Source: Porticoccaceae bacterium LTM1
Lineage (GTDB): Bacteria; Pseudomonadota; Gammaproteobacteria; Pseudomonadales; Porticoccaceae
Direction of reading: 5' to 3'
NCBI GenBank assembly: GCA_030252795.1
Contig: CP127080.1
Coordinates: 1,066,501 to 1,130,500, forward strand
Length of the DNA stretch: 64,000 nucleotides
Shown: piece after piece, positions 47,603-62,476 of the stretch
How the letters are laid out: each line of letters begins with the position of its first letter
How positions within the stretch are numbered: position 1 is the first letter of the stretch
Translations under genes and position numbers: made by a program
Notes under the pieces: generated by a model
Databases searched by the model: none
Told to the model about the DNA's origin: nothing
What the model saw: only the letters and a program-made list of their open reading frames with translations

Positions 47603-47613
47603 TGTTGCTGCTG

Positions 47614-47754
47614 GCAGGCTGTTGAAATTTGTATTCGAGGCAGCTACTGCAAGGCAAAAATGGATGAAAAGAGGGCGTTTATTGTAATAAATGACCGATT
47701 TGAGTCCATTTTAAACGCCGCAGGAGCAACGCAGATAGAATTTCAACCACCTGC
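47614..47754. repeat. Dispersed palindromic repeat, copy A (about 140 bp)
   Basis: An imperfect inverted repeat between rlmN and pilF. The outer arms are GTTGAAATT (47621-47629) and AATTTCAAC (47739-47747), with GCAGG/CCTGC beyond. The middle arms are AAAATGGA (47657-47664) and TCCATTTT (47705-47712), and the centre is TTTATTGTAATAAA. It is homologous across about 115 bp to the copy near 57.0 kb, with compensatory changes. Its right end stops one base before the pilF ribosome binding site. Confidence 0.85.
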
Positions 47755-47766
47755 TAAGGAGCTGCT

Positions 47767-56268: not shown

Positions 56269-56994
56269 ATGAAGAAAAAGTTTCTCGTAGCCGTATTGGC
56301 AATCGTTCCGGCAGCGGCTTGTTTCGCAGAAGATAGCTCCGATAGTTGGTCTGGCGAAGCTGAGTTGGGTTTTACCCGATCTACCGGTAACACCGATTCT
56401 GAAAACCTGCTGTCTCGCATCAAGATCAATAAAGAATACTTGAAGTGGAGCAATGAACTGCGTCTGGAGGCAATCAATAGCTCCGAGGATGATGTTCGCA
56501 CCAAGGAAAGCTACCTGATGGAGCTTCAAGCCAATCGTAAGTTCTCCGATCTTACATACGCTTTTAGTAACCTGCGTCACGTTGAAGACAAGTTTGGTGG
56601 TTTCCGCAAACAATCATCCGTCAGCTTCGGTATGGGTTGGAATGTACTGAGAGAGCCAGACCACAAACTGAAACTGGAAAGCGGTTTGGGTTATCGTCGC
56701 AGTGAAGAGCAATCTACAGAAGATATGCCAGGTGAGACGCAGGGCGAACCAGTCTTTGTTGGCAGTGCCGAGTGGGTTTACCAGCTCACTGAAACCACCA
56801 CACTCAGCGACACCTTCCGTACAGAAGTGGGTAGCGACAACACCTTCACCGAGAATGAAATTGCAGCTCGCGTAAAAATTAACGCGTCACTGGGATTGAA
56901 AGTGAGCTACCTGGTACGTAACAACAGCGATGTGCCGGTTGATACCGAAAAGACCGACACGCTGACGTCGATCAGCCTCGACTACAAATTTTAA
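56269..56994 (+). CDS. DUF481 outer-membrane protein (second of a tandem pair)
   Basis: A 241-residue paralogue of the preceding gene with a signal peptide (ending CFA) and the same strand pattern (GEAELGFTRSTGNTDSENLL, YAFSNLRHVEDKFGGFRKQS), ending YKF. Similar order, matching blocks and proximity indicate a tandem duplication. The ATG has GAGGAAGAG upstream. Function is unknown. Confidence 0.87.
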   Translation: MKKKFLVAVLAIVPAAACFAEDSSDSWSGEAELGFTRSTGNTDSENLLSRIKINKEYLKWSNELRLEAINSSEDDVRTKESYLMELQANRKFSDLTYAFSNLRHVEDKFGGFRKQSSVSFGMGWNVLREPDHKLKLESGLGYRRSEEQSTEDMPGETQGEPVFVGSAEWVYQLTETTTLSDTFRTEVGSDNTFTENEIAARVKINASLGLKVSYLVRNNSDVPVDTEKTDTLTSISLDYKF

Positions 56995-57003
56995 TTGGTT
57001 CTA

Positions 57004-57125
57004 GAAAAACGTTTTCGAGGAAGTCAATGCAAGGCAAAAACAGGCGAAAAAGCGGAGTTTATATTTGATAAATGAGCATTTTGAGCCTGTTTTTAACGCC
57101 GCAGTGACAACGTAGATAGTTTTTC
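57004..57125. repeat. Dispersed palindromic repeat, copy B
   Basis: Outer arms are GAAAAAC (57004-57010) and GTTTTTC (57119-57125). Middle arms are AAAAACAGGC (57036-57045) and GCCTGTTTTT (57085-57094), and the centre is TTTAT-ATTTG-ATAAA. It shares about 115 bp with copy A (47.6 kb); bases that differ within the arms change in pairs. Its right end includes the stop codon of xseA on the minus strand. Confidence 0.85.
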
Positions 57126-58467
57126 AATCGCTGATGGCATCGACGGTGCATGTAAGTGTACCGTCGCTCAATCGAGCGGTTACGGTTTGCCCGATTGCCA
57201 CCTCTTTAACTGAATCAATCACCTGTCCCTGTTCAGTCAGGGTAATGCTGTAACCGCGCTCCAGTGTTTTCAACGGACTCACGGTATTCAGCATCTGCGC
57301 AACACCGGCCAGCGCTGTCTGGCGACTTTTAAGTTGCAGCCTAATTGCGTTGTGCAGTCTTTCGCTCAGGTAACTGGTGCGCTGTTTGTACTCGGCAATT
57401 TTTACTTCCGGGTGAAACCGTGACAGCCGCGCGGTTAACTCTTTTAAATTGCTCTGGCAGTGCTGAATCTTTTTGGCCTGGGCAGCCAGCAGGCGAATTT
57501 CCAGATGATCCAGGTGCTGTTGCTGTTCGCGGAGCCGTTCACCGGGGTGGCGTTGGCGGCGCTGCAGGTGTTCCAGCTTCTGGCGCAAAGCCTGAATCTG
57601 GCGTTTCACGGTATCCGCCAGTAATTGCTGGTAGCCAGCAAATGTCGCCATAAGCTCCGTGCCATCCGGGCTCAATAACTCAGCTGCCGCCGAAGGAGTA
57701 GGGGCGCGCAGGTCGGCAACCAGATCGGCAATGGTAAAGTCGACCTCGTGGCCAACGGCGCTGACGATGGGAATGTTGCTGTGGTAAATCGCTCGCGCAA
57801 CACGCTCTTCGTTAAACGCCCACAGGTCTTCCATTGAGCCACCGCCGCGTCCGACGATCAGTACATCACAGCGGTTGTCGCGATTGGCAATTTCGATAGC
57901 GGTGGCAATTTGCTCTATGGCCTCGCGACCCTGTACCGCTGTTGGGTAAATGGATACCGGGATGGAGGGGAACCGTCGCCGCAGAATATTGAGGATATCC
58001 TGAATCGCCGCGCCGGTAGGGGAGGTGATCACACCAATGCGCTTGGGCATGGTAGGCACTGGCTTTTTGTGCTCAGCGGCAAACAAGCCTTCCGCCATGA
58101 GCTTGCTTTTAAGCTCTTCAAAGCGCCGTTGCAGTGCGCCCAGTCCGGCTTCTTCCATATGCTCGACAATCAGCTGGAATTCACCGCGGCCTTCATAAAG
58201 GCTAACCCGACAGCGCACCATAACCTGCATGCCATTTTGCGGCCGAAAGCGTACCAGGCCATTGCGGTTGCGGAACATTGCCCCGCGAACCTGGGCGTTG
58301 TCGTCTTTGAGGGTGAAGTACCAATGGCCGGAGCTGGGGCAGGCGAGGTTGGACAACTCGCCCTCCACCCAGATCAGTGGCAAGTGTGTTTCAAGCAACT
58401 GTCGGGTGCGACGGTTGAGCTGGCTGACAGTGAAGACCTGTCGTTCTGGGAGTTCGTTGATATCCAT
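57124..58467 (-). CDS. xseA: Exodeoxyribonuclease VII large subunit
   Basis: A 447-residue nuclease subunit that degrades single-stranded DNA together with XseB. It has an N-terminal OB-fold (LPLIWVEGELSNLACPSSGHWYFTLKD) and a catalytic core with FEELKSKLMAEGLF, RIGVITSPTGAAIQDIL and VGRGGGSMEDLWAFN. A coiled-coil region and a C-terminal domain (TLERGYSITL) follow. Its TGA stop lies in the outer arm of repeat copy B. xseB is not in the window. Confidence 0.95.
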   Translation of the reverse strand: MDINELPERQVFTVSQLNRRTRQLLETHLPLIWVEGELSNLACPSSGHWYFTLKDDNAQVRGAMFRNRNGLVRFRPQNGMQVMVRCRVSLYEGRGEFQLIVEHMEEAGLGALQRRFEELKSKLMAEGLFAAEHKKPVPTMPKRIGVITSPTGAAIQDILNILRRRFPSIPVSIYPTAVQGREAIEQIATAIEIANRDNRCDVLIVGRGGGSMEDLWAFNEERVARAIYHSNIPIVSAVGHEVDFTIADLVADLRAPTPSAAAELLSPDGTELMATFAGYQQLLADTVKRQIQALRQKLEHLQRRQRHPGERLREQQQHLDHLEIRLLAAQAKKIQHCQSNLKELTARLSRFHPEVKIAEYKQRTSYLSERLHNAIRLQLKSRQTALAGVAQMLNTVSPLKTLERGYSITLTEQGQVIDSVKEVAIGQTVTARLSDGTLTCTVDAISD

Positions 58468-62218: not shown

Positions 62219-62223
62219 CTTTA

Positions 62224-62364
62224 GGGCGCCTCTAAAAATGCACTTTTTCAGCGATAGCCGCGTTGGCAACGTACTCGACTCCTCATGTATGTCTTATACA
62301 CTCCGGGTCTCCGTGCGCTGCCGCCTTGCTCTCGCAAAAAAAATCACTATTTTTAAAAGCGCCC
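62224..62364. repeat. Imperfect palindromic repeat between oadG and oadA (about 140 bp)
   Basis: The ends are GGGCGCCTCTAAAAAT (62224-62239) and ATTTTTAAAAGCGCCC (62349-62364), an inverted repeat with a few mismatches. The inside holds TTGGCAACGTACTCGACTCC and CTCCGGGTCTCCGTGCGCTG, reminiscent of intergenic repeats of marine gammaproteobacteria. There is no open reading frame. It lies inside the putative oadGA operon. Confidence 0.75.
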
Positions 62365-62476
62365 TTTCGTTCTCTCATATTTTCACCTGGCTAGCTGCCG
62401 GTGGTTAACGTGTAAATTTGATTTCAATGCACATGGTCTAAAAGACACTGCATTGGTCTGATAGGGGAATTTACAG

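Follow-up and report, generated by a model that had tools for sequence, protein, structure and literature searches.

ERIC has served as a typing marker since the early 1990s, with no agreed origin or mover. The ERIC of E. coli is a classic repeat whose origin, to our knowledge, has been unclear since 1990. A second described system, MITEPsy1, has one copy on a virulence plasmid of a plant pathogen. ERIC elements are known from enterobacteria and from Vibrio (PMC2267715). MITEPsy1 of Pseudomonas syringae, an IS5-type element with a CTAG/YTAA target, was trapped while moving, and its relatives are said to be widespread (PMC3189936). Here, hairpin repeats in a 64-kb window (the whole stretch of DNA that was analyzed) were compared with these systems. 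With a probability of roughly 0.7, we take the copies to be IS5-type MITEs of about 140 bp that carry a module with exchanged ends and a selected fold, and ERIC to be a branch of the same group.

Hairpin copies in the window and distribution of the family

The first-pass annotation had described two copies of a dispersed palindromic repeat, copy A (47614-47754) and copy B (57004-57125). Both were found at these positions and the arms quoted for them were correct, although their true extents are wider (approximate limits below). A third copy, C, had been missed and was detected with a covariance model (E 2.3e-26).

Copy A, 47611..47757, plus strand: type I; terminal inverted repeat (TIR) CAGGCTGTTGAAATT (from 47615) to AATTTCAACCACCTG (up to 47753)
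Conserved core of copy A, 47648..47722, plus strand: arm TGGAT/GTCCA
Copy B, 56991..57138, plus strand: type I; outermost TIR decayed
Conserved core of copy B, 57028..57105, plus strand: TGCAAGGC bulge and AACGCC bulge
Copy C, 62220..62367, minus strand: type III; TIR GGCGCCTCTAAAAATGCA / GGCGCTTTTAAAAATAGT; flanks TTAG / CTTT

Copy A is intergenic, between rlmN and pilW, and its flanks (CTGG left, CTAA right) form a decayed target duplication. Copy B lies between a DUF481-like gene and xseA, which are convergent; the TTAA flanking it on the left provides the stop codon of the DUF481-like gene. In the core of copy B, a variable, covarying arm CAGGC/GCCTG is accompanied by GA loop 1 (CGA/TGAG), loop 2 (GCGGAG/TGAGC), and the apical stem GTTTA/TAAAT; loop 2 of copy A, GAGGGCG/TGACCGA, is of the beta type. 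The predicted plus-strand folds had energies of −51 kcal/mol for copy A (−30.2 in dinucleotide shuffles, z −5.6) and −39.6 kcal/mol for copy B (−23.8 in the shuffles, z −4.8).

A blastn search of the complete genome, a single contig of 3.13 Mb, with copy B gave about 20 places. The covariance-model search of the genome and its relatives that the annotation had proposed was run with R1, a model built from family copies without any ERIC sequence. It returned 26 copies at E<1e-4 in this genome, three of them in the window, so that the repeat is indeed dispersed and not limited to two copies. Of 369 genomes sampled from the class, 161 were positive with R1; in a phylum sample that also takes in genomes outside the class, 94 of 299 were. 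Named carriers include Pseudomonas, Stutzerimonas, Halomonas, Chromohalobacter, Kangiella, Hahella, Marinobacter, and Nitrosomonas, and copies are also present on Pseudomonas plasmids. The phage records searched contained no match. Rfam 15 gave no match above the gathering score for the hairpin repeat, and a literature text search for the core sequence yielded no relevant paper among the matches listed. The hairpin repeats apparently form a very large, uncatalogued mobile family without genes across the Pseudomonadota, and the model can be used to annotate a repeat present in about 44% of the class genomes sampled. One core copy was located on a contig labelled Bacteroidota (L101, Alistipes MAG JAFTNV010000032.1, 1718-1758), which may be a binning error.

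Covariation and the conserved fold

In a first alignment of 17 copies from this genome, RNAalifold gave 38 pairs, 24 of them with two-sided change. A larger alignment (A2) comprised 53 copies, drawn from this genome, from relatives, and from named records; here 88.4% of the cells pair, and the covariation score was 0.499, compared with 0.166 (S.D. 0.008) after shuffling and only 0.08-0.13 when the 3′ partners were slid. Because the slid control preserves relatedness, inheritance alone does not explain the covariation. Copies A and B covary as first described, their arms differing in a paired, compensatory way, and further copies follow suit rather than showing uncompensated arm differences, with two-sided changes at 40 of the 47 pairs.

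Up to six standard pair types occur per arm position with complementarity kept, and covariation is no less free in the outer arms than in the inner arms. The near-invariant places among 101 distinct copies are unpaired or irregular, namely CAAGGC, AACGC, and a G.T pair under the tip. The AAC bulge is conserved at 98-100%, loop 1 is GA/GA in 89 of the 101 copies, loop 2 is G[GC]A/GA in 94, and the GTTTA/TAAAT tip with the AA and AAC bulges is nearly invariant. The element holds a conserved module between its ends whose arms can have almost any sequence, provided that they are complementary. A kink-turn was rejected, as the G.A loops come without a three-nucleotide bulge.

Long inverted repeats undergo quasipalindrome correction. 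The compensatory changes might therefore be mutational, changes being copied across by template switching or gene conversion between the palindrome arms, and the free covariation of the outer arms agrees with this. However, correction would erase the asymmetric bulges and mismatched loops, and these are the best kept parts (the AAC bulge and loop 1 above all). The preference for G.U over A.C reported below is not expected from correction either. We regard such a mutational origin as quite unlikely and selection on the fold as the better explanation.

In a cruciform, a G.T in one arm is an A.C in the other, and hence neither is expected to be favored. In the core arms of the plus strand, G.U and A.C stood at 47:11 and 42:13, an excess that is partly biased since the loci were picked with an RNA model and the copies are not independent; in a set chosen by BLAST and pattern it was smaller (34:17). 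The plus strand was predicted to be the more stable one in 92 of the 101 copies with RNA parameters and in 93 with DNA parameters. As the copies are related, p values of the strand tests are indicative only. The better folding of the plus strand and the excess of G.U over A.C argue for a single-stranded form of one strand and against a cruciform. The annotation had proposed that the folded form, as RNA or cruciform DNA, is selected or copied: the very strong covariation upholds the folded form, and the cruciform is disfavored, because one strand systematically folds better. The asymmetry points to single-stranded RNA or DNA and in itself fits both. The fold of the family looks selected in a strand-specific manner; selection would act on one strand in its folded, single-stranded state, which is somewhat more likely to be RNA than single-stranded DNA.

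Neighboring genes

The copies are mostly intergenic and often abut stop codons, and divergent (promoter) gaps are under-used (9 of 77, by crude ORF calls). Such a distribution would suit a host-serving structured RNA, either a bidirectional terminator or an mRNA stability element, kept site by site through selection on the neighboring genes, and ERIC is known to affect mRNA stability in Yersinia (PMC2229807). Against this, the orientation relative to the neighboring genes has no clear bias (20 same-sense and 28 antisense copies in codirectional gaps, again by crude ORF calls), the sites of copies A and B are not common to the congeners, and both the TIRs and the target duplications are typical of a transposon. 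A host-serving role of this kind appears highly improbable to us, and the copies are treated below as mobile elements.

Termini, target sites, and candidate mover

Family elements measure about 140 bp, have no coding gene, and end in TIRs. Among the 41 copies with CAG-type ends, 23 have identical 4-bp flanks (CTAG, TTAA, CTAA, or TTAG; nearly all YTAR), and the control offsets gave 0. YTAR stands on both sides in 27 copies, with 23 identical pairs compared with 11.1 expected by shuffling. In copies A and B themselves the target duplications have decayed. Both congeners have an empty rlmN-pilW gap (about 30 bp) and lack the element in the DUF481-xseA gap, and both carry family copies elsewhere (7 and 9). 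At the place orthologous to copy B, one congener has another repeat, GTCGTCATCCCCGCGCAGGCGGGGATCCATC (L076, G001, DUF481-xseA gap). In 15 of the 41 CAG-type copies, a long open frame has its stop codon inside the flanking YTAR, compared with 15 of 137 other flank YTAR sites; on insertion at a stop codon, the duplication would restore the stop.

In relatives, three TIR types bracket IS5-family transposases on both sides, and two further types match at one IS end only.

TIR CAGGCTGTTGAAA: both ends of an IS5-family element (L111, L116)
TIR GGAAACTCTGAATAAG: both ends of an IS5-family element (L112, L119)
TIR GAGACCTTTGCACGA: IS5-family element, right end less exact (L110)

The bracketed transposases matched NCBIfam NF033581 with E values of 1e-75 to 1e-103, above the IS5 cut-off. 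No core was present inside the IS5-family elements examined in relatives. An origin of the family by internal deletion of the partner IS was rejected, as the resemblance seen reaches no further than the TIR or slightly beyond it, and the IS does not contain the core. Taken together, the TIRs, the YTAR duplications, the empty sites in the congeners, and the matching ends of IS5-family elements in relatives identify the repeat as a non-autonomous MITE. Of the two affinities suggested by the annotation, MITE-like is therefore retained, and REP-like is dropped because size and architecture differ.

As the best explanation, IS5-type transposases from other elements would move the copies in trans, and by analogy with the trapped MITEPsy1 these copies may likewise be able to move. 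No IS5/IS4-type transposase (Pfam DDE_Tnp_1, DUF772) was detected in a search of their own genome, which makes present mobility there doubtful; the copies of the window genome may be stranded. An assignment to integron attC sites was rejected, the copies being dispersed and the usual core sites not seen on inspection.

Three copies (L025, L036, L181) are shortened to about 70-90 bp with both ends kept and the tip missing, and represent internal deletions that retain the TIRs. In L037 (G000:C1:1279896-1280098), a palindromic, G+C-rich sequence of about 57 bases, CTCGCTTTGCTCGCCCTTCGGGTCGCCTTCGGCGCTCAACGGC, interrupts the 3′ arm. A type III copy in L182 (G000:C1:1856600-1858600, at 949-1240) is split by another element, which is about 215 bp long and has the TIR AGGGCCTGTTCACACTAATTGAATA. 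This inserted element seems to hold two CAAGGC..AACGC-like hairpins and is possibly a two-core member.

One core behind many ends

The termini of the 101 distinct copies differ outright (CAGGCTGTTGAAA, GAAGCTGTTTCATAA, GGAGCCTCTGATTAA, GAGACCTTTGCACG, GGCGCCTCTAAAAAT, GAACCTGTTCACGAT, TCTACTGTGTCACAAAG, and others), and most arm positions vary as well. CAGG ends occur with an alpha core in 31 copies and with a beta core in 8, and TTTGCACG ends in 2 copies each; one kind of end can thus accompany either core type, and one core can sit between different ends. An exchange of ends would account for this, as would repeated change in both parts, and we favor exchange. The module would then have passed between element lineages with different ends.

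Neither exchange nor function of the core would be needed in an ordinary MITE lineage, in which the core was kept by recent spread and the TIRs drifted along with their transposases. Most TIRs do resemble variants of IS5-type ends, and copies within one genome share ends. Recent spread is at odds, however, with arms that are heavily changed, up to six standard pair types at a position, around fixed unpaired motifs. The occurrence of one TIR class with both core types, and the reverse, likewise speaks against it, as does the wide range of the family, which takes in almost half the genera sampled from the class and extends to other classes. We regard this explanation as quite unlikely too and favor a selected module with exchanged ends. 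A transposable element in which a fold is conserved, and not a gene or the ends, and which is seen behind a variety of ends, is unusual; the family could serve as natural covariation data for the study of a protein-binding or RNA function.

Relation to ERIC

Fifteen ERIC loci were examined with R1, which had been trained without ERIC. The model matched 13 of them end to end on the expected strand, and at the other two (Enterobacter and Serratia) the match was confined to the tip. Scores were 38.7 bits for Pantoea, 35.5 for Klebsiella michiganensis, and a modest 15-26 for E. coli. In scans that were not exhaustive, as the first-look filter missed known ERIC copies, R1 gave two matches in a whole 744-kb Pantoea replicon, both ERIC, and two in a 5.37-Mb Klebsiella record, both of them copies of an ERIC-related element whose ends are different. 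In Klebsiella pneumoniae (L194, CP125156.1, 5245-5390), an ERIC-related element with ends GAGTACGCAATAATTTGCGC is present in two identical copies and scores with both models.

The reverse search was performed with R2, an ERIC-only model, over 183 kb. It gave 12 matches up to E=10, each of them to a family member and correct in position and strand. Copy C, the most ERIC-like of the window copies, had E 1e-5 and copy A 0.06 (E values for the ERIC link are rough), and copy B was not reported in this search. Copy C could be aligned colinearly with a Pantoea ERIC over about 90 bases, with a z of 7 relative to dinucleotide and palindrome-preserving shuffles; copy B had no pairwise similarity to ERIC.

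Similar tips could also arise by convergence of two unrelated palindromes, as copy B and the E. coli ERIC share little beyond the tip and the TIRs and target flanks of ERIC and the family differ. The models, however, match reciprocally at the right place and strand, none of 500 palindrome-preserving shuffles aligned as well as copy C with the Pantoea ERIC, and the Klebsiella element is recognized by both models, at 43.8 and 62.9 bits. Convergence is therefore judged unlikely. From the reciprocal matches and the one direct alignment, we infer common descent: by sequence, ERIC appears to be another branch of one superfamily. Fold (the CAAGGC/AACGC asymmetric loop and two GA loops) and reciprocal profile matches are shared at this level. 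In the strict sense of the ERIC consensus CCCCAGGAGCTTAC..GTAAGTGACTGGGG with the ERIC TIR, copies A, B, and C are not ERIC and are related only. No published statement of this relationship was found in a search that most subscription papers lay outside. With ERIC placed in a phylum-wide family that has identifiable IS5-type ends, its origin and its mover both become testable.

As a tentative proposal, which we hold to be possible rather than probable, the core would be a portable folded module taken up by many different IS5-type ends because a protein recognizes it through the G.A loops when it is single-stranded, as RNA or as lagging-strand DNA, and because in this form it helps the element to spread or to be tolerated. 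ERIC would be the enterobacterial branch and would thus consist of old IS5-type MITEs.

Comparison with known systems

REP and REPIN sequences with their RAYT are palindromic intergenic repeats like the family, but they consist of 20-40-bp units with GTAG/CGTC tags (PMC3733652), depend on tyrosine transposases, and are without DDE-type TIRs and target duplications. They were rejected as an identity on size and ends, the copies being single 140-bp hairpins with TIRs and YTAR duplications. MITEAba12 of Acinetobacter is likewise a MITE with the TIRs of an IS, in its case a co-resident one, but differs in its 9-bp duplications, its weak predicted folding only, and its other TIR family (PMC6382973). 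MITEPsy1 (ISPsy2/IS5; PMC3189936), which was compared by description, shares an IS5-type TIR, the 4-bp CTAG/YTAA target, a length of about 100 nt, and the lack of a gene, whereas its TIR GGAAGGTCTGAAAAAGCC is unlike those of the window copies. ERIC (also IRU or RU-1) differs from copies A, B, and C in its terminal repeats and in its TA-type flanks, which are YTAR in the family, and its ERIC-PCR primer sites are unmatched in the copies. Like the family, it is a single long imperfect hairpin of 127-150 bp in intergenic position, and its CAAGGC / GGAG..TGAC / AACGC motifs and two GA loops occupy the same positions in the structure.
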